Assembly: GCA_014189685.1 (NCBI GenBank)
Contig: DVAB01000008.1
Coordinates: forward strand, 1 to 37,144
Direction of reading: 5' to 3'
Source of the DNA: Candidatus Naiadarchaeum limnaeum
GTDB lineage: Archaea > Undinarchaeota > Undinarchaeia > Undinarchaeales > Naiadarchaeaceae
Length of the DNA stretch: 37,144 bases
In this document: piece by piece, positions 1-23,674 of the stretch
How positions within the stretch are numbered: position 1 is the first letter of the stretch
Layout of the letters: each line of letters opens with the position of its first letter
Notes under the pieces: model-generated
Databases searched by the model: none
What the model was told of the DNA's origin: nothing
What the model saw: the letters and a program-made list of their open reading frames with translations, nothing else
Translations under genes and position numbers: made by a program

Positions 1-82
1 AAAAAGCTTTACATTTACTTGCGGAACAGGAAATTGCTAAATTTTAGAAAACATTATTAATTCTGTATTTCTATGTGCTCAT

Positions 83-724
83 ATGAACACTCGCGGCCAG
101 GCAGAGGCACTTTCCCTAATCCTCATAGTTGCAATTCTTCTTGTAGTTATAATCTTAACTTATGTCTGGGGTCGCGGTTTATTCGAATCGCAAAGAACAA
201 GGAGTACTGTAGATTATGTGACATCAAAGCTCTTTGAGATTAGGGGCGCAATACTTGCTGTTTCACATGAAGGCGTGAATTCATCGAGGGTTGTTCAATT
301 AGATGTTCCTGTTGGCGAGTTAATTGTTTTAAATGGCACTTTTTGTTCTAGCAATAGGATGAGTGAAAATTTAATTGCTTTCAACATAACAACAACGAGC
401 AAACTTATTGAGTCAGAAGATTGGATAAGCATTGATCCAACAGAGAGCAATTCAAGCTGCAATGCTGGCTATGAGGGCAGCAGTGCCTCTGTTCTCATGG
501 GCAAGACCGAAAAAATAGGGACTAGCTATACAAATTCCTATTCCCTCTGGTTTAGAAATCTCACACAGTCAAACGGTGCTTCAAACAATTTTTATGTTAT
601 AAACATAACCCCTGGAACTACAACAAAGGTTTCTGGAGGCTCGCATAGAGTTGTAGTAAGAAATGCAGGGACTACTAATGTCAGTTATACAATTTACACA
701 TCTATTCAAGTTGATATAGTATGA
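83..724 (+). CDS. Type IV pilin-like protein 1 (class III-like leader)
   Basis: A 213-residue protein with a short N-terminal peptide (MNTRG), then QAEALSL and a hydrophobic helix to about residue 30, followed by an extracytoplasmic domain rich in Thr, Ser and Asn. The Gly-Gln junction followed by a hydrophobic stretch is the usual processing and assembly signal of archaeal type IV pilins. The predicted mature Q at +1 recalls class III (EppA-type) prepilins. The outer domain has seven N-x-S/T sequons, suggesting N-glycosylation. It is the first complete gene of the filament operon, and its stop overlaps the next start (ATGA). Likely a major or minor filament subunit. Family membership rests on architecture rather than a recognised domain. 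Confidence 0.7.
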   Translation: MNTRGQAEALSLILIVAILLVVIILTYVWGRGLFESQRTRSTVDYVTSKLFEIRGAILAVSHEGVNSSRVVQLDVPVGELIVLNGTFCSSNRMSENLIAFNITTTSKLIESEDWISIDPTESNSSCNAGYEGSSASVLMGKTEKIGTSYTNSYSLWFRNLTQSNGASNNFYVINITPGTTTKVSGGSHRVVVRNAGTTNVSYTIYTSIQVDIV

Positions 725-1200
725 AAAATATTAAATCGCGGTTTTTCAAAAATAAAAAAGCGGCAAGCATTTTGATTGAGCAGATATTTGTATTAATGTT
801 TGGAATACTCATACTGGTAATGGTAATAACTGTTTTTACAACTCTGCGCGCGAAGTCTTTTGATTTTGTTGCGAGCTCACAATTTGGAAGCGTTGCAAGC
901 TATGTGCACAATGGGGTTATTATAGCAGAGCAGAACATGCGCGTCGCAAATACAGGGAAAGTCTTTCTTGATTTGCCTGATAAAGTGGGGGATAAGCCAT
1001 ATCGAATTGAGATAAAAAATAATTTCATCAACGTTACTGATCTTGGGGGGGCTTTGAATACTTCTGTGGCACTTTTTAATATCAACGCAACTGTGAGTGG
1101 AAACGCTAGCTCAGGCGGGGGAGGAAGAATTTTTCTTTTCTACAATAGAACTGCAAACAGCATAACTCTGCAAGCAGAGGAAAGAGTAATAAGTACTTAA
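721..1200 (+). CDS. Type IV pilin-like protein 2
   Basis: A 159-residue protein with a basic N-terminus (MKNIKSRFFKNKKA), then ASILIEQIFVLMF and a single hydrophobic helix to about residue 42. The rest is a beta-rich outer domain with a glycine-rich turn near residues 131-135 and five N-x-S/T sequons. The Lys-Lys-Ala junction before the helix, with a Glu a few residues in, fits a prepilin-type leader. Translation is coupled to the preceding pilin-like gene by a 4-base overlap, and the filament ATPase starts 15 bases downstream. Probably a minor filament subunit. No specific family was recognised. Confidence 0.65.
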   Translation: MKNIKSRFFKNKKAASILIEQIFVLMFGILILVMVITVFTTLRAKSFDFVASSQFGSVASYVHNGVIIAEQNMRVANTGKVFLDLPDKVGDKPYRIEIKNNFINVTDLGGALNTSVALFNINATVSGNASSGGGGRIFLFYNRTANSITLQAEERVIST

Positions 1201-1215
1201 ATCGTAATCCCGATT

Positions 1216-3255
1216 ATGGCAAAGAGATTTAGCAAATTTTTAAGAAAGGCAGCTCTTGCTTACAAGCAAAGAGCCGAGGCGCAGCATAAAAAGCCGCGCA
1301 TTGATGAGATACACAGATATCTTGTGCATGAAGGAGTTTCCCCCGAGCTTGGCAAAAAGCTCCATGAGACAATAAGCAAGCAGACTGAAGTAGGGGCTGG
1401 GGAAAAAGTTATTTCTGTGATAAAAGCAGCCATTGAACAAAAGCGACAAGGAAAGCTAAGTGCAGAGGGCCTTGAAAAAATTGTTAATGAGGCTATTGTT
1501 GAAAGTGAAAAAGGGGTTCCAAAAGACGAACTTGCTGATCTAATTAGAGAAATTCTGCGTTCAGAACTACAAAAACATGAGATTGTCTCGTCATATGTTC
1601 CTCCAAAACAAGCTCAGATTTCCCTACTTCCTGAAGTTGAAAAACCAGAAGAGGGGCGCAAAGGAAAAGAAATTGCAATTCCACTTCCATCTGTGCACGA
1701 AGGAGGGTTAGTTAGGAGAAAGCCAGGAGTCGGAGCTGAATGGCGCACAATAGATCTAACGCAAGTAAACATAACTTTTCCGCTTTATTTTGCTGAAGGA
1801 AAAATTCATTTCTACGCGAATATTCGCTTTGACCCAAAACTTGGAGGGCTACTCTACAGAATAATTGAGCCGCAGCTCACAAAGGAAGAAAAAGCATTAC
1901 TTGATAAAGTTGAGGAAACTCTTGTTGAGGAGCTTGAGGTTGATTTTGCTGCTCTAAAAAAACAAACAGCGGAAAAATATCTTAAAGATAAGACAAATGA
2001 GGTAATTGAATATTATGGCTATAAGCTGTCCGAGCGAACAAAAACATTAATCGATTACTATATTGCTCGAGATTTTATTGGCTTGGAAAGAGTTGAGCCT
2101 GTATTTCAGGATGCGCAAATAGAAGATATTTCCTGTGATGGAGTTGGGGTTCCAATATATGTTTATCACAGAGACCCAAGATTTGGATCGATAAAGACAA
2201 ATATAATTTTCCACACAAACGAGGAGCTTGATTCTTTTGTTATGAAGCTAGCGCAGAGATGCGGACGCTCGATTAGTGTTGCAGATCCGCTTTTAGATGG
2301 GGCTCTGCCAGATGGGAGCAGAGTTCAGGCAACTTTTGGTTCTGGGATTTCAATGAAGGGGAGCAACTTTACAATAAGAAAATTCACAAAAGAGCCGCTC
2401 ACACTTATCGATTTAATTAAATACGGAACTGTAAACAGTGAAATGCTTGCTTACTTCTGGCTTGCAATTGAGCATGGAAAATCTATTTTGATTGCAGGGC
2501 CAACTGCCTCTGGAAAGACAACTTATCTAAATGCTTTATCACTTTTTATTCGGCCAGAAACAAAAGTTGTTACAATTGAGGACACTCCTGAATTAAGACT
2601 GCCCCTAGAAAACTGGGTTGCACAAGTTGCACGCTTAGGATTTGGAGCAGAAACTGTCACAGGAAGAAAAATAGGGGAAATAACCCTTTTTGATTTATTA
2701 AAAGCTTCCCTCAGACAGCGCCCAGATGTTATAATTGTCGGAGAGGTGAGAGGGCAGGAAGCCTATGTTCTCTTTCAACAAATTGCAACCGGTCATCCTG
2801 GATTAAGTACAATCCATGCAGAATCACTAGAGGCAGTCATAAATAGATTAAGGACTCCTCCCATAGAACTGCCCCCCAGCCTAGTGCAGCATTTAGATAT
2901 CTTAGTTGTCTTGACAAGGCAACGCGTGCGGGGGGAATATGTAAGGAGAACAAAAGAACTTGTTGAAATAACAGGCTATGATATTGTTAGGGATCATCCA
3001 TATTCGAACGTAGCATATACGTGGGATCCTGTAAAAGATGTATACGGTTATACAGGAAAAAGCGCAATTCTGCGCAGTGTTATGGAAACCATCGGATCAA
3101 CTCCTGAAGGAATATCAGCTGAGATTGAGAGGAGAATGGACGTAATAGAATGGATGTACAACAATGGCATTCGTGATTACAAAAATGTCGGCCGCGTAAT
3201 TGCTGAATACTATCAAAACGCCGAAGGGCTTATGCAAAAGATTGCAAAGATCTAA
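1216..3255 (+). CDS. Type II/IV secretion-system ATPase of a pilus-like system (FlaI/TadA/VirB11 superfamily)
   Basis: A 679-residue hexameric-type ATPase expected to drive filament assembly at the inner face of the membrane. Visible motifs: Walker A GPTASGKT at 428-435, the Asp-box region VVTIEDTPELRLP near 451-463, Walker B DVIIVGEVRG at 504-513, and the His box GHPGLSTIHA at 527-536. About the first 180 residues are a charged, largely helical extension beyond the usual N-domain. It may contact partner proteins, but that is inference. A short inverted repeat (AATCG, six bases, CGATT) abuts the start codon. The gene precedes two T2SSF membrane proteins, the normal ATPase-platform arrangement. 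The superfamily is certain; the exact filament class is inferred from context. Confidence 0.93.
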   Translation: MAKRFSKFLRKAALAYKQRAEAQHKKPRIDEIHRYLVHEGVSPELGKKLHETISKQTEVGAGEKVISVIKAAIEQKRQGKLSAEGLEKIVNEAIVESEKGVPKDELADLIREILRSELQKHEIVSSYVPPKQAQISLLPEVEKPEEGRKGKEIAIPLPSVHEGGLVRRKPGVGAEWRTIDLTQVNITFPLYFAEGKIHFYANIRFDPKLGGLLYRIIEPQLTKEEKALLDKVEETLVEELEVDFAALKKQTAEKYLKDKTNEVIEYYGYKLSERTKTLIDYYIARDFIGLERVEPVFQDAQIEDISCDGVGVPIYVYHRDPRFGSIKTNIIFHTNEELDSFVMKLAQRCGRSISVADPLLDGALPDGSRVQATFGSGISMKGSNFTIRKFTKEPLTLIDLIKYGTVNSEMLAYFWLAIEHGKSILIAGPTASGKTTYLNALSLFIRPETKVVTIEDTPELRLPLENWVAQVARLGFGAETVTGRKIGEITLFDLLKASLRQRPDVIIVGEVRGQEAYVLFQQIATGHPGLSTIHAESLEAVINRLRTPPIELPPSLVQHLDILVVLTRQRVRGEYVRRTKELVEITGYDIVRDHPYSNVAYTWDPVKDVYGYTGKSAILRSVMETIGSTPEGISAEIERRMDVIEWMYNNGIRDYKNVGRVIAEYYQNAEGLMQKIAKI

Positions 3256-3295
3256 GGCTTAAATTTATTTATATTAAGGGATTATTACGTTTAGC

Positions 3296-4171
3296 ATGGA
3301 CTTTTACGACAGGTATAGAATAGCTGCCGGAAATATTTTCAATAAATATGTTGAGCCACAGCTCACAAAATATCGTCGTGTGCACAAAGATTTAAAGATG
3401 GCGAACATGCCAATAATGCTGCGCGAGTACATAAGCATGGTTTATCTCACGATGGTTTTGACCGCTGTAATTTCTTTTCCGGTTTCATTTGTGATTTCTT
3501 TTCTTTTGGTTAAGGACTTAATTTTTGTACTCCTTTATACAGTGCTTTTTGGCGCGATTGCAACTCTTTCAGGCTATTTCATACCTTTAGAATTCCCTGC
3601 CATGAAAGCAAATGAGCGTAAGCGAAATATAGACAACAATTTGCCTTTTGCAACTCTTTACATGAACACAATTGCAGGAACAGGAGCACCTCCACATTTA
3701 ATTTTTAAGCTTCTCTCGGAATTCAAAGAATATGGTGAGGTTTCAAAAGAGGCGCAGTCAATTGTTGAAGATTTGGAGGTAATGGGATCTGATATACAAG
3801 TTGCCCTCCAGCGCGCAGCAGAAAGAACCCCCTCCCAGGATTTTAAGGATTTACTATGGGGCCTAATAACAACAATTGTTCGGGGAGGGGATATGAAAGC
3901 GCTTTTGCAGGAAAAGTCAAATCTATTAATGGAAGCTTATAGGAGAAAAATGGAAGAATACACAGATGACCTGTCGATGTATGTTGAAATTTACATAACA
4001 TTGGTGATTGTTGGCTCTATATTTTCAATAGTAATGCTGACAATTATGGGCGCAATTTCTGGATTTGAGACTCTTAAAGCAATTCAGCAGATTCTTGTAT
4101 TTGTTTTTCTGCCAATGGCTTCAATTGCGTTTATTGCACTGCTAAAATTCACATCTCCACTTACTACATAG
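3296..4171 (+). CDS. T2SSF-domain membrane platform protein 1 (TadB/TadC/FlaJ-like)
   Basis: A 291-residue polytopic protein. Two adjacent hydrophobic segments lie near residues 45-95. A cytoplasmic helical region follows, with the sequence NNLPFATLYMNTIAGTGAPP typical of T2SSF domains, and two C-terminal membrane segments lie near 230-285. It should be an inner-membrane platform that couples the ATPase to the pilins. Archaellum FlaJ proteins usually carry two T2SSF modules in about 500 residues. Here the module is single and a second gene follows directly, as in TadB/TadC. An AT-rich TATA-like stretch at 3264-3278 may give it its own promoter. Confidence 0.88.
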   Translation: MDFYDRYRIAAGNIFNKYVEPQLTKYRRVHKDLKMANMPIMLREYISMVYLTMVLTAVISFPVSFVISFLLVKDLIFVLLYTVLFGAIATLSGYFIPLEFPAMKANERKRNIDNNLPFATLYMNTIAGTGAPPHLIFKLLSEFKEYGEVSKEAQSIVEDLEVMGSDIQVALQRAAERTPSQDFKDLLWGLITTIVRGGDMKALLQEKSNLLMEAYRRKMEEYTDDLSMYVEIYITLVIVGSIFSIVMLTIMGAISGFETLKAIQQILVFVFLPMASIAFIALLKFTSPLTT

Positions 4172-4180
4172 AGCTCACAG

Positions 4181-5062
4181 ATGGAAATCAATATCTTTAA
4201 GAAAAACACAAAAGAAGAAAAAAAGACTAAGGAGTCTGAAGAATTCTTAGGGCTTTCCAAAAAAAAGCAATTGCTTTATTTTTCAATTATCTTTGCGGCT
4301 TTGATTACATTAATAGCAATTTTACTTGCGCCCCCACGTCTTTATGCACTATTTGTGGGATTATCAGTGATGGTAGCGTTTATCCCATACTCACTTCACT
4401 CGTACTTTGAGGCCGCGCGTTTAAGAGATATGGAGGATAATTTACCTGAATTTTTAAGAGATATTGCAGAAGCTCGAAAAACAGGAATGACTCTTCCAGA
4501 GGCGGTTTACAAGAGCATGCGTATTGATTATGGAAGGCTTACGCCAGAAGTTCAAAAAATGGCCTATCAAATATCGTGGGGAATTCCCTTCGATGAAGTG
4601 CTAAAAAGATTTGCTAAGCGCATAAAAAGTAGATTTATTGAGCGTGCAATTGCAATTATAATTCAAGCTCAGATTAGTGGGGGCGCTTTAACAGATACTT
4701 TAGATTCTGTTGCGCGCGATGCAACATTAATAAAGGAGGCTGAAAAAGAAAGAAAAACAAAATTAAACCAGCAGGCGCTGATAATGTATGCAATCTACAT
4801 TCTTTTTGTAATAATAGTCATTGCTCTGCAAAAATTAATGATCCCGCTTATCACAAGCCAGGGATTTACTCTTGCAACTCAAAATCCAGAGGAGATAGTT
4901 CAATTTTATAAAAACCTTTTTTTCTCAATGATAGTTATCCAAGCTGTATTTAACGGAATGCTTGCAGGGCAGATTTCAGAGGGCAGCCCTGTGATAGGAT
5001 TAAAGCACAGTGCAATATTTCTTGCATTTGGAGTGGTGGCATCATGGTTTTTCATATTATAA
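4181..5062 (+). CDS. T2SSF-domain membrane platform protein 2 (TadB/TadC/FlaJ-like)
   Basis: A 293-residue partner of the preceding platform protein. A Lys/Glu-rich N-terminus of about 30 residues is followed by two membrane segments (about 32-75), the T2SSF cytoplasmic region (MEDNLPEFLRDIAEARKTGM near 103-122) and two C-terminal membrane segments. It contains the typical IIIQAQISGGALTDTLDSVA stretch. The gene begins nine bases after its neighbour, and its 3' end overlaps the next pilin-like gene by 19 bases, so the operon is continuous. Two different T2SSF proteins probably form a heteromeric platform. The family assignment is firm; the heteromer is inference. Confidence 0.88.
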   Translation: MEINIFKKNTKEEKKTKESEEFLGLSKKKQLLYFSIIFAALITLIAILLAPPRLYALFVGLSVMVAFIPYSLHSYFEAARLRDMEDNLPEFLRDIAEARKTGMTLPEAVYKSMRIDYGRLTPEVQKMAYQISWGIPFDEVLKRFAKRIKSRFIERAIAIIIQAQISGGALTDTLDSVARDATLIKEAEKERKTKLNQQALIMYAIYILFVIIVIALQKLMIPLITSQGFTLATQNPEEIVQFYKNLFFSMIVIQAVFNGMLAGQISEGSPVIGLKHSAIFLAFGVVASWFFIL

Positions 5063-5562
5063 AAAATGCAAAGGCACAGGTAAACATAGAGTTTGTTGTA
5101 TCTATAATTATTCTTGTACTTATCACAATTAGCGCTGCAATAGCGATTCTTCGTCTCTTGCCAACTTTTAGTACAGCAACCGAGGATTCTGATTTGCGTG
5201 CGCGGGCAACTGATTTTTCAAAAGTACTTTTTGATAATCCAGGTGTGCCTACAAATTGGGTTACAAACCCTATTTTAGTTGGGCTTGCTTATTACAATAA
5301 TAATTCAAACGAAACCGTTCGGGGAGCTTTGGATCCGATTAAAGTTGATTATTTAAATGACTCAATTACCTACGACCAGTTAAAACAAAATCTAAATCTT
5401 GAGGATGATTTTAATTTTAAAATCGACATCTCGAATCAAACTTTTAGATTTCTTGATTATTTTAATCACACTCCTGGTAAAACAGATAAAACAATAACAA
5501 TTAAGAAATACGCATCAGTAAACAGAACTCAGGTGAATATAACTTTACTAGTATGGAAATAA
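5044..5562 (+). CDS. Type IV pilin-like protein 3 (class III signal peptide)
   Basis: A 172-residue protein. The N-terminus reads MVFHIIKNAKA then QVNIEFVVSIIILVLI. Ala-Gln with a Glu at +5 and an uninterrupted hydrophobic helix matches the archaeal class III signal peptide pattern (Q at +1, E at +5) processed by EppA-type peptidases. Seven N-x-S/T sequons lie in the outer domain, for example NET, NDS, NQT, NHT, NRT and NIT. The start codon lies inside the 3' end of the T2SSF gene, preceded by GTGGTGG, a plausible ribosome binding site. It is the clearest class III leader in the operon. Confidence 0.75.
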   Translation: MVFHIIKNAKAQVNIEFVVSIIILVLITISAAIAILRLLPTFSTATEDSDLRARATDFSKVLFDNPGVPTNWVTNPILVGLAYYNNNSNETVRGALDPIKVDYLNDSITYDQLKQNLNLEDDFNFKIDISNQTFRFLDYFNHTPGKTDKTITIKKYASVNRTQVNITLLVWK

Positions 5563-6041
5563 CTAATAGAAAAGGATACATAAGGCTTATTGAAGTTTCG
5601 CTTGCAGCAGCTCTTGTATTTGGATTTTTAATTTTTGTACAGCAAACACAATCATCTCTGCTAAGGGGTTCGCAGAGCTATGATCCAATTGTTTTAAAAA
5701 CTCTTGGCGAAGATATTATAAGAAGTCTCGACCTCAGGGATTCAGACAGAAATTTCCGCAGTGACTTGCGGGATTATTTAAGATTTGGAACGAGTTGCAT
5801 TAATAATTGGCCACAATTAACACAAGAAATCACTGCTGCGCTCCCAGAAAATGTTGGCTTTTCAGTGTTTTTAGTTGATAGCAGCGGCAACTCTCTCTAT
5901 CAAGGTGGAGTTGCAACAGGTGCTCAGCCAACTCAACGAGAAATTGTAACTATTAATTACATTGTTGCTGGCGACTATGGGAGTTATTGCAATATCTGGT
6001 CTCCGTGCAATGTCAAACTATCATTATGGTTTAAGATATGA
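5553..6041 (+). CDS. Type IV pilin-like protein 4, without N-glycosylation sequons
   Basis: A 162-residue protein with leader MEITNRKG, then YIRLIEVSLAAALVFGFLIF, a pilin-like hydrophobic helix with a Glu at position 6 of the predicted mature chain. A soluble outer domain follows, with three cysteines (Cys77, Cys146, Cys152). Unlike the other four pilin-like proteins here it has no N-x-S/T sequon. It overlaps the preceding gene by 10 bases and the next by four. It might be a minor subunit at the filament base or tip, which is inference. Confidence 0.62.
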   Translation: MEITNRKGYIRLIEVSLAAALVFGFLIFVQQTQSSLLRGSQSYDPIVLKTLGEDIIRSLDLRDSDRNFRSDLRDYLRFGTSCINNWPQLTQEITAALPENVGFSVFLVDSSGNSLYQGGVATGAQPTQREIVTINYIVAGDYGSYCNIWSPCNVKLSLWFKI

Positions 6042-6790
6042 GCAAAAAAACTTTTCCTAATCGGAAGGCACAGTTTTTTATAGCTAGCGCAGTGATAATA
6101 ATTTTTGTTGTAACCGCAGTTTTCTTTTTTGTTGCAAAAATCGGGCAAATAACAAATCCTGCTTTGCTCCAGCGCGAGATGAGTTTTTTCGCTTTAAATA
6201 CCAAAGAGGAGTTTGGCAAAGTTGTTGAAATTTCGCTCTCCGATGTTTCAAGGGACACTTCTTTAGATCCAAATACTTATCTTGATGCTAATTTGAGCTC
6301 TTTCAGCAAATATATACAGGCACAGGGACTGGAGCGCGGAATAATTGTTAATGCAAGCGCTACTCGAGTATCCGCATCCAACTCTTCCATGAACGCATCA
6401 CTTTATCTTTCGCTTTTTAGCCAGGGTTCAAATTTGGAAACAAACGCATATCTCTACCACGCAATTACAACTAACGCTTTAAATGGAACTCTTGTAACAA
6501 CTCCTACTTGCACATTAAATGTGACTGTAAAAAAAGAATTTGGCGAGCCAATTACAGAGCTGAACAGCAGCAATTTTGTTTTTAAAATAAATGGTACGAC
6601 ATGCTCAACTGTGAGCTATGATGAAAGGAGCAGAGGAAAATACAATGCAACTTGTTCTAGTTCAACTTGTCCAAGCTCAACTGTAAGAATCGAAGTTACA
6701 GAGCACAGAAATATATTTGGGTTTAGCACAATCCCAAACACAGGCTTAGGAAATGGATGCGCGGCAAATTGTGGTCAGCCAATAGATTAG
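6038..6790 (+). CDS. Type IV pilin-like protein 5, cysteine- and sequon-rich
   Basis: A 250-residue protein. Leader MSKKTFPNRKA precedes QFFIASAVIIIFVVTAVFFF, again an Ala-Gln junction before a hydrophobic helix. The outer domain holds nine N-x-S/T sequons, and its C-terminal half has several cysteines (TPTC, TTC, ATC, STC, GNGC, NCG), suggesting disulfide stabilisation. It is the last gene of the filament operon and is translationally coupled to its neighbour (ATGA). Its TAG stop interlocks with the TAA stop of the convergent rfcL gene in a shared TTAG. Probably the largest filament subunit or an adhesive minor pilin. Confidence 0.65.
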   Translation: MSKKTFPNRKAQFFIASAVIIIFVVTAVFFFVAKIGQITNPALLQREMSFFALNTKEEFGKVVEISLSDVSRDTSLDPNTYLDANLSSFSKYIQAQGLERGIIVNASATRVSASNSSMNASLYLSLFSQGSNLETNAYLYHAITTNALNGTLVTTPTCTLNVTVKKEFGEPITELNSSNFVFKINGTTCSTVSYDERSRGKYNATCSSSTCPSSTVRIEVTEHRNIFGFSTIPNTGLGNGCAANCGQPID

Positions 6791-7986
6791 GTATAATTCT
6801 TTAAAAAGCGAATTTGCTCCTCGTCTAGAGGCAAATCAAGAGATTTCTTTTTTAAAATTAAACTTAAATATGGAAATTGTTCAATAGTGCGCTTTTTTGA
6901 GCAGTGCAACTTTTTTCCAACTAAAAAAGCAACCTCATCTCTTGCAGCACGCTCTCCTTTTGAAGCACCCATTTTCTGAAGAATTTTTGGAGGCACATAG
7001 CGAGTGAATTTTCTATATTTTTCCTTTTTTGCGGCTGCGACTCCAAAAGTCATTAATTCGTTTGAAAAAGCCTGCAATCCCCATGCCTGATTGTGTATTA
7101 TTCTGCCTCGAAAAACATCTGCTCTTGAAAGCATATTATAAGCGGCTGCGATCTCTTCTGGCTTTTCGTATTCGTTCGGAATATTTTCTGCGATCCACAT
7201 TAAAATTTCATCAGGGGTTTTATCAGAGCTTGAGAATGCTTTTTGAATAATTCTCCAATCCTTTGATTTAAAAATTGCAAGCAGTGTTTCGAATATTGGA
7301 ATTTCTTTTTCTCTCCAAGATATGAGTTCCAAATCTTTTTCATCAACTTTTTTCATCCCCAAAGTTTGCAAATCATTAATTGCTGCGCGCAAATCTCCTT
7401 CTGCGCGGCGCGCGATTTCATGCAAAATGGCCTCTTTAATTTTAACCCCCTCTGTTTCTGCGATTTCTTTCAATCTTTTAACTATAGTGCGGAGATCAAC
7501 TTTCCTCATTTGAATTAGCTTGCAAGACAATCTTAAAAATCTCAGCTTGTCAATCCAAATATCATTTGCAGTCAGGATTATAGGATAATTTGTTGTTCTG
7601 ATTATTTTCTGCAGCGCTGAAATTCCGCCTCTGTCAGAGGTTCCATAGATTCCATCTATCTCATCAATCAAAACAATTTTTCCCTTTTTCTGAACTAAAG
7701 ACTGTTGAGAAACCGCGTGCCCAATTTTTTCCATAATTGTTTTCTCTGTCCTAAAATCAGAGGCGTTCATTTGAATTAGCTCATAAGTCAATTCATTTGC
7801 TAAAGCTTGAGCGAGCGCAGTTTTTCCATTTCCAGAAGGGCCGTGTAAAATTATAGCTCTGTTTTTTTCTTTTTTGAAATTCTTAATCCATTTTAGAAGA
7901 TCTTGAATGGCCGTATCTTGTCCTGCAATATCTCTTAATTTTTGCGGCCGGTATTTTTCGTTCAACAGAGAAAAATCTTTTTCCAT
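6787..7986 (-). CDS. rfcL: Replication factor C large subunit
   Basis: Clamp-loader large subunit, which with RfcS loads the PCNA sliding clamp. Walker A GPSGNGKT is near residues 49-56 and Walker B VLIDEID near 105-111, followed by the AAA+ lid and helical C-terminal regions. The ATG at 7986 is chosen over an in-frame TTG at 8001. The ATG is preceded by GGAGGAAGG, a strong ribosome binding site, and it overlaps the stop of the upstream gene in TAATG. The resulting protein is 399 residues, on the short side for the family. The usual C-terminal PIP box is not obvious; the last residues (EEQIRFLKNYT) are at best a weak match. Confidence 0.95.
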   Translation of the reverse strand: MEKDFSLLNEKYRPQKLRDIAGQDTAIQDLLKWIKNFKKEKNRAIILHGPSGNGKTALAQALANELTYELIQMNASDFRTEKTIMEKIGHAVSQQSLVQKKGKIVLIDEIDGIYGTSDRGGISALQKIIRTTNYPIILTANDIWIDKLRFLRLSCKLIQMRKVDLRTIVKRLKEIAETEGVKIKEAILHEIARRAEGDLRAAINDLQTLGMKKVDEKDLELISWREKEIPIFETLLAIFKSKDWRIIQKAFSSSDKTPDEILMWIAENIPNEYEKPEEIAAAYNMLSRADVFRGRIIHNQAWGLQAFSNELMTFGVAAAKKEKYRKFTRYVPPKILQKMGASKGERAARDEVAFLVGKKLHCSKKRTIEQFPYLSLILKKKSLDLPLDEEQIRFLKNYT

Positions 7987-8594
7987 TATCCCTTCCTCCA
8001 ACCAAATTTTGTTAGAAGCCCATATACCCCTTTGTTAAGTTCTGTAATTGTACTATTTTCCAAGTAGCTATAAACTTCAATTTCTCCAGTGTCAAGCTCC
8101 TCAAAAATCGTTTGTATCCCTAAATCATTCCTCAGTTGCATAAAAGTACTTTTTATCTTTTCTTCTTGCGCAGATTTAATTGTTGCACTCCATGCCATGC
8201 TTATCTCATTTGCAGTTAGGCTAAATGCGCAGCTTAATAATACTGGGTAAAATTTCATGCCTCGTTTAGTTATTCCAATAAAAACTAATCTTCCTTGAAG
8301 CATAGGAATTTTTTCTGGGCCCCAAAGTGTTGCTCTTTTTGCTTTTTCGCATATGCAAAGCGCAACAATTTCTCCATTTGTTTCAATTATAATTGCTGCA
8401 TTTTCAGTATCACTGAGATACTCTCTGAATTCTCGCTTCTCAATTAGTTTCCCATAACCTATTTTCTCTTCAACTGCCCATATTTTTTTTAAATCTCCCT
8501 CTCGTATAAGTCTGAGTATAAAAACACTTGATTCATTCTCTAAAGTCCAGATAGAATTCCTGCTCAATACTTCGTTCTGCAGCATTTCAATCAC
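7986..8594 (-). CDS. GNAT-fold-like protein encoded between rfcS and rfcL
   Basis: A 202-residue protein of unknown role. The N-terminal half has the look of a GNAT acetyltransferase: FILRLIREGDLKKIWAVEE, then a strand pair with AAIIIETNGEIVALCICEK, then GRLVFIGITKRGMKFYPVLL, where the acetyl-CoA loop (R/Q-x-x-G-x-G/A) would lie. That loop is not clearly conserved, so the protein may be degenerate or bind another ligand. The GTG start overlaps the rfcS stop (GTGA) and its own stop overlaps the rfcL start, so it is coupled at both ends to clamp-loader genes. Fold assignment is by eye and tentative. Confidence 0.6.
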   Translation of the reverse strand: MIEMLQNEVLSRNSIWTLENESSVFILRLIREGDLKKIWAVEEKIGYGKLIEKREFREYLSDTENAAIIIETNGEIVALCICEKAKRATLWGPEKIPMLQGRLVFIGITKRGMKFYPVLLSCAFSLTANEISMAWSATIKSAQEEKIKSTFMQLRNDLGIQTIFEELDTGEIEVYSYLENSTITELNKGVYGLLTKFGWRKG

Positions 8595-22846: not shown

Positions 22847-23674
22847 ATGGCTGATGATATGCGCTGGAAATTGTTTTTGAATGAAAGCATAATGTTTTTG
22901 CTTATTCAGGCAATTGGTCTATATGTGGGCTATCGGTTCTTTCTCCAACAAATGATTATTCCTGCAGAAACAACAAGCTCTATTTTTACATTTCTAATTT
23001 CGTTCGCAGTTGCGACCGTTGGATTAATTCTTTTGTTAAAATTTTTCAAAACAAGAGTATTTTTTAAATTTTTGCTTGCGTTTTTAATTTTTGTGGGCGC
23101 TGAAACTGTATTTTTAGTTTTTGTTCCAGAGGAAGCCGCAATTCTAATAGCAATTGAACTAGTTCTATTAAGATTCGTATGGCCAAATGTTTTCTCGCAA
23201 AACCTTGCACTTATATTTGCAGTATCAGGAATATCAGCAACTCTAGGATTATTCTTTTCTTTTGAGGCTGTTCTTGTGATTTTAGCAGTTCTTTCTGTTT
23301 ATGATGTTATTGCGGTTTATAGAACCAAGCATATGATAACTTTGTTCAAGGGCTTGCTCGAGAAAGGAGTTCCTTTCTCAATCATAGTTCCGGATAGAGC
23401 AGGAGATGTACGAGCGCAAGTAAAAGATGCTCAGCCAGGGACAGGAAGATTTTTGCTTTTGGGAACAGGAGATATTGCATTTCCGATTGTTTTTGCAGTT
23501 GCTGCCCTTAAATTCGGCATGCTTTCTTCAATTTCAATTATTTTAGGGGCATTTGTAGGATTATTCTTTATTCATTTAATTTTAATGCAAAAGAAAGTTG
23601 GAGCAATCCCTGCGCTTCCGCCAATTGTTTTCTTTTCATTAATAGGATTTATAATCAGCTTAGTTGTATTTTAG
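22847..23674 (+). CDS. Presenilin/SPP-like intramembrane aspartyl protease
   Basis: A 275-residue polytopic protein with about nine membrane segments and the three signatures of presenilin-type GxGD proteases: YD (Asp153 in SVYDVIAVY), GTGD (Asp209 in LLLGTGDIAFP) and the PAL motif in GAIPALPPI (255-258). It should cut membrane-spanning helices within the membrane. The loop between the two catalytic Asp residues is short and hydrophilic, as in other archaeal homologues. Type IV prepilin peptidases belong to the wider GxGD class but have a different motif layout, so this is not the expected pilin processor. Natural substrates are unknown. Confidence 0.92.
   Translation: MADDMRWKLFLNESIMFLLIQAIGLYVGYRFFLQQMIIPAETTSSIFTFLISFAVATVGLILLLKFFKTRVFFKFLLAFLIFVGAETVFLVFVPEEAAILIAIELVLLRFVWPNVFSQNLALIFAVSGISATLGLFFSFEAVLVILAVLSVYDVIAVYRTKHMITLFKGLLEKGVPFSIIVPDRAGDVRAQVKDAQPGTGRFLLLGTGDIAFPIVFAVAALKFGMLSSISIILGAFVGLFFIHLILMQKKVGAIPALPPIVFFSLIGFIISLVVF

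Follow-up and report, generated by a model that had tools for sequence, protein, structure and literature searches.

A probable PilB4-type type IV pilus locus with a split membrane platform in a genome of the Undinarchaeota

Introduction

Two conserved type IV pilus (T4P) loci containing coiled-coil genes have been described in cluster-2 DPANN archaea and Undinarchaeota, and a role in host contact has been suggested for them in the locus descriptions of Hamm et al. (2024; PMC11291902). As presented there, locus 1 spans cluster-2 DPANN and Undinarchaeota and combines GroEL, a coiled-coil protein, PilA, a FlaF-like protein, a CpaF-type ATPase and TadC. A second point of reference is the haloarchaeal PilB4-type T4P (clade 2 in Fig. 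4B of Makarova et al., 2016; PMC4858521), represented by H. mediterranei plasmid pHME505. In this locus, genes for an ATPase and a platform protein with two modules are followed by genes for DUF7287, DUF7288, DUF7261, DUF7266 and DUF7289 proteins, and a type IV pilin N-terminal protein is encoded nearby. Two tadC-like genes have already been reported in many clade-2 loci (Makarova et al., 2016), and a split platform has been listed as a feature of both Tad and Epd systems (Denise et al., 2019; PMC6668835).

The window analyzed here, a DNA stretch of 37144 bp, is the whole of contig C40 in the 984-kb, 98%-complete genome of Candidatus Naiadarchaeum limnaeum, a small DPANN archaeon of the order Undinarchaeales. 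An original prediction made from its sequence had described a compact eight-gene operon for an Epd/Tad-like filament with five different pilin-like proteins, viewed as an ancestor-like form of Tad. The kind of pilus encoded is already known, here in a little-studied phylum. What is added here is the separation of the probable major pilins by a contig boundary, the rejection of a Tad ancestry and a match of five pilins to the haloarchaeal PilB4-type locus.

Results

Organization of the eight-gene core

The eight open reading frames all lie on the + strand, with intergenic gaps of at most 40 bp and overlaps of 4–19 bp (Table 1). Pfam matches bore out the presence of one ATPase and two single-module T2SSF proteins. 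All five pilin-like proteins (P1–P5) carry a cleavable-type leader, in which a short basic segment and a [KR][GA]/X junction precede a hydrophobic helix, and Gln occupies the +1 position in three of them (P1, P3 and P5), as had been noted. A search of the genome for the class III signal PF04021 gave weak matches on contig C8 only. A promoter scan gave fewer promoter-like sites than the shuffled expectation, and a terminator scan gave sites scattered within genes; neither was used.

Table 1. Features of the pilus locus and the adjoining gene in the window. A slash marks the predicted leader junction; "halo-only" denotes profile matches to haloarchaeal sequences alone.
Feature	Coordinates	Strand	Evidence or remark
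Third PilA-type pilin, C-terminal end (KSFTFTCGTGNC, then stop)	2..40	+	Front of gene apparently at end of contig C36
Predicted minor pilin P1 (DUF7289-type), leader MNTRG/QAEAL	83..724	+	Profile match to haloarchaeal DUF7289 97.1%; 96.3% halo-only
Predicted minor pilin P2 (DUF7266-type), leader ..KNKKA/ASILIEQ	721..1200	+	Profile match 92.4%
PilB/GspE/FlaI-type assembly ATPase	1216..3255	+	T2SSE, E 2.6e-35 (Pfam)
Membrane platform N-module	3296..4171	+	Single T2SSF, E 2.3e-14; N-part of FlaJ model, positions 4-248
Membrane platform C-module	4181..5062	+	Single T2SSF, E 2.4e-14; C-part of FlaJ model, positions 173-450 of 465
Predicted minor pilin P3 (DUF7287-type), leader ..NAKA/QVNIEF	5044..5562	+	Profile match to DUF7287 97.5%; 95.7% halo-only
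Predicted minor pilin P4 (likely DUF7288-type), leader MEITNRKG/YIRLIE	5553..6041	+	Profile match to DUF7288 92.9%; 34.5% halo-only
Predicted minor pilin P5 (probably DUF7261-type), leader ..PNRKA/QFFIA	6038..6790	+	Weak row-best match to DUF7261 32.6%; 6.4% halo-only
RFC large subunit (named by eye)	6787-8001	-	Convergent with pilus operon; next gene after P5

The locus probably extends onto a second contig

The window begins within another pilin gene, its first bases encoding a PilA-type C-terminus. Upstream of P1, the relatives L068, L069 and L071 contain, in order, a GroEL-type chaperonin, a coiled-coil protein of ~200 aa, a 67–69 aa protein with two transmembrane (TM) segments and at least one pilin (KGITPII..); the upstream gene order of L073, L076 and L077 resembles theirs. 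When the genome was searched with a relative's PilA-type pilin and GroEL, a single place matched: the end of contig C36. This end carries genes for GroEL, a coiled-coil protein and a two-TM protein of 68 aa, followed by a tandem array of three PilA-type pilins whose final member is truncated by the contig end. C36 stops at ..SSDETSADK plus AAAAA and C40 starts with AAAAAGCTTT.., while the C-terminal ends present on C36 are ..LFTFSCSFNQSC for PilA1 and ..LITFSCTT..GGC for PilA2. PilA1 matched Pilin_N at E 8.9e-4, below the cut-off. Among 51 relatives with enough upstream sequence, GroEL was found in 28, the coiled-coil protein in 34 and a PilA-like gene in 27.

From reading frame, homology and synteny we infer that C36 and C40 are adjacent, and that the full locus reads GroEL – coiled-coil – two-TM – PilA (three copies) – P1 – P2 – ATPase – platform N – platform C – P3 – P4 – P5, split over the two contigs. 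Because the upstream part lies on C36, the eight genes would make up the downstream end of a larger locus encoding at least eight pilin-like proteins. The compact operon first described thus holds for its eight open reading frames, coordinates, domains and leaders and not for its extent, since the contig edge cuts it; likewise the five pilin-like proteins are all distinct and conserved, but the three PilA proteins had been missed. These PilA proteins are probably the major pilins.

At the other end of the operon, the convergent arrangement with the RFC large subunit recurs in 16 of the 54 relatives whose sequence extends far enough downstream. In the closest relative (G001, locus L067, 6338-10003), the ATPase gene is convergent with PilA genes at a contig end and no platform genes follow, a layout that reflects either a rearrangement or an assembly error.

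The ATPase falls among euryarchaeal PilB/GspE proteins

Among PDB entries, the ATPase matched A. fulgidus GspE best (2OAP, E 3.6e-114), followed by FlaI (2.6e-80) and the Tad ATPase CpaF (2.8e-39), and the ranking was the same when its AF2 model was used for a structural search. 2OAP, at 39–40% identity in the structural alignment, is the closest solved ATPase. A tree of 82 rows placed the ATPase within a DPANN and euryarchaeal clade, close to 2OAP and to a PilB4-like protein of Haloferax and far from Tad; archaellum ATPases and the PilB/GspE clade form a group with support 95. On this sequence evidence, we conclude that the ATPase belongs to the euryarchaeal PilB/GspE clade, near the archaellum. 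Its closest relatives are encoded by metagenome-assembled genomes (MAGs) labelled Undinarchaeales, UBA55 and ARS1358, of the same order. Viral contigs scanned with the ATPase contained no relatives.

The N-terminal extension of the ATPase noted in the original prediction is indeed present in the AF2 model, as helices spanning residues 2-125 and a low-confidence linker over residues 126-178, and it is longer than that of 2OAP. Its conservation is moderate within the order and poor outside, and ATPase lengths differ widely across the close set. A special partner for the extension, as had been proposed, is possible.

The split platform is widespread among relatives

In a tree of single platform modules, N-modules and C-modules separated with support 97. 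The first T2SSF protein of the window is an N-module and the second a C-module, each closest to DPANN relatives. Both fall with modules of clade 2 and of archaella and away from TadB and TadC, whose branches are long. Two single modules are present in 76 of the 92 loci of the close set, and transitions between split and double platforms require at least four changes on the ATPase tree. Together with the two tadC-like genes reported by Makarova et al. (2016), these results show that an Epd or Tad identity cannot be read from a split platform; its earlier use as a mark of those systems was too narrow.

Five pilin positions correspond to haloarchaeal families

The five pilin positions, each represented by 21–62 DPANN sequences, were compared with the five haloarchaeal families in a profile-profile matrix. 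The diagonal values are listed in Table 1, and all off-diagonal cells were below 17%. When the haloarchaeal side was reduced to two haloarchaeal sequences, the diagonal was still row-best for all five positions, with lower values for P4 and P5. Profiles built from Undinarchaeales alone matched DUF7289, DUF7266 and DUF7287 at 62–65% and gave no match for P4 or P5. The P4 match depends on the euryarchaeal sequence L086, with families assigned by gene order and leader. P2 matched PF23928 at E 7.2e-6 (26.2 bits, cut-off 27.6) and its L068 orthologue exceeded the cut-off (E 2.9e-10); the L068 orthologue of P1 matched PF23960 at E 1.7e-4, below the cut-off.

The AF2 model of P1 (pLDDT 79.5) consists of a 60-residue N-terminal helix followed by a beta domain. 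Since a Foldseek search of the PDB with this model returned nothing with E < 0.001, the pilin fold rests on the leader, the helix-plus-beta model and the family matches. Counterparts of P4 in other DPANN range from about 120 to 850 aa, and the P5 position is conserved among relatives. Taken together, the full matrix and the two restricted comparisons indicate that the predicted family correspondence is secure for P1–P3 and likely for P4, while P5 is probably of the DUF7261 type as judged by position and leader. Our literature search found no papers on DUF7289, DUF7266 or DUF7287, and the position-by-position match appears a useful addition of uncertain novelty.

Prepilin peptidase

One prepilin peptidase gene was found in the genome. 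It encodes a 296-aa A24-family protein with ~7 hydrophobic stretches, matches PF01478 and PF06819 above cut-off and is located on C7, a contig other than that of the pilus operon.

Discussion

Because the ATPase clade and the pilin set both match, we assign the locus, with a probability of about 0.85, to the PilB4-type (euryarchaeal clade 2) T4P with a split platform, corresponding to DPANN locus 1. With the haloarchaeal PilB4-type locus it shares the ATPase clade, the same five pilin families, a PilA-type pilin association (through the three PilA genes at the C36 end) and the order P3-P4-P5 after the platform. The two differ in that the haloarchaeal platform is one double-module protein and the haloarchaeal ATPase has N- and C-terminal additions of its own; moreover, P1 and P2 precede the ATPase in Undinarchaeales, whereas the DUF7266 and DUF7289 genes come last in H. 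mediterranei. The GroEL and coiled-coil genes beside PilA, ATPase and TadC agree with locus 1 as the published loci are described. Unlike in those descriptions, the single locus is here split over two contigs, and the correspondence of the five pilins does not feature in the portions of Hamm et al. (2024) that describe the loci.

Two other machines share parts of this equipment. The reading as an Epd/Tad-like pilus, with an archaeal machine related to the ancestor of bacterial Tad, draws on the two single-module platform genes adjoining the ATPase, as in Tad and Epd (Denise et al., 2019), and on the class III-like leaders with Gln at +1. However, in AU tests that used quick trees with SH-aLRT only, placing the Undinarchaeales ATPases in one clade with Tad cost 125 log-likelihood units (p-AU 1.1e-78), and placing the window group with Epd-like loci, whose anchors (L052, L057, L100 and L101) were picked by content for their very short pilins of the QGSxEYL type and a neighboring gene for an EppA-like multi-TM peptidase, cost 407 (p-AU 1.05e-52). 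EppA is the dedicated Epd peptidase and has nine TM segments; neither a peptidase of this type nor a very short QGSxEYL pilin was found in the locus, unlike in the four anchors. A TadZ-like MinD ATPase was likewise absent from window positions 1–8000 and from L195, while MinD-family genes occur elsewhere in the genome. With split platforms arising at several places in the tree, platform modules that group with clade-2 and archaellum proteins, and pilins matching the PilB4-type set, we consider an Epd/Tad-like identity highly improbable. An archaellum or archaellum-derived motor has in its favor the rank of FlaI as second-best PDB match, a score of 401–404 bits with the NCBIfam archaellum ATPase model (NF058587) and the cost of only 27 log-likelihood units for a joint clade, which is not significant in the same quick-tree tests (p-AU 0.081). 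That score is nevertheless far under the cut-off of 550, which no ATPase of this genome passes and which is exceeded in seven other genomes of 41. The platform is split, whereas the archaellum members of the set have double ones, and no ArlH-like gene is present in the window operon; an archaellum is thus a very remote prospect.

A third proposal concerns function. Pili of all Undinarchaeota MAGs have been suggested, in one sentence, to take up DNA that feeds nucleoside salvage (PMC7414124). No ComEA- or ComEC-like competence gene stands beside the locus in the open reading frame lists of the window, however, and the same type of machinery serves adhesion in haloarchaea (PMC4858521). DNA uptake as the chief function is therefore unlikely, and the filament probably acts in attachment or adhesion.

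For a PilB4-type pilus, homology, gene order and phylogeny suggest the following scheme. The single A24-family peptidase found would remove the short leaders at the [KR][GA]/X junction, and an ATPase hexamer would drive pilin extraction and polymerization through a platform of the two T2SSF proteins. PilA proteins would form the filament shaft, with P1–P5 as a low-copy minor-pilin set for initiation or the tip, and the filament would attach the cell to surfaces or partner cells. More tentatively, P1–P5 might be a minor-pilin complex, conserved and ordered, that DPANN, haloarchaea and other Archaea have in common and that corresponds to the initiation/tip complex of bacteria. In some lineages, P4 or P5 (more than 900 residues at some loci) would have been enlarged into adhesins by which the partner cell is selected; we regard this reading as possible but doubtful.

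With these assignments, the presumed connection of DPANN to the origin of the Tad pilus falls away, and a split platform alone is no evidence for such a connection. The assignments also link a DPANN locus with a presumed role in host contact to a type of pilus present in haloarchaea, so that the role of the five pilins could be tested in genetically tractable haloarchaeal hosts.

Further loci and genes were observed in the course of the analysis. Contig C8 of the same genome carries a second pilus locus (L012, 4598-16433) with a split platform, a coiled-coil protein adjoining the ATPase and several pilin-like proteins; it is probably the counterpart of locus 2 as outlined by Hamm et al. (2024). 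A third filament-like locus on C22 (L013, 982-10244) has a divergent ATPase cut by the contig end, a platform protein of 698 aa with two modules, and several small proteins that each have a hydrophobic helix at the N terminus. The Epd-like loci L101 (433-8101, contig C38 of G013) and L100 (6170-13570, contig C29 of G035) each contain an ATPase, two single-module platforms, short QGSxEYL pilins and an EppA-like multi-TM peptidase. G013, a contig of which matches L122, is apparently the Diapherotrites MAG AUK171, in contrast to the confinement of EppA to methanococci, methanobacteria and thermococci given by Makarova et al. (PMC4858521). Farther along the window, a multi-TM protein with YD and GTGD motifs (22847-23674, + strand) is, judged by eye, possibly a presenilin-type intramembrane protease.
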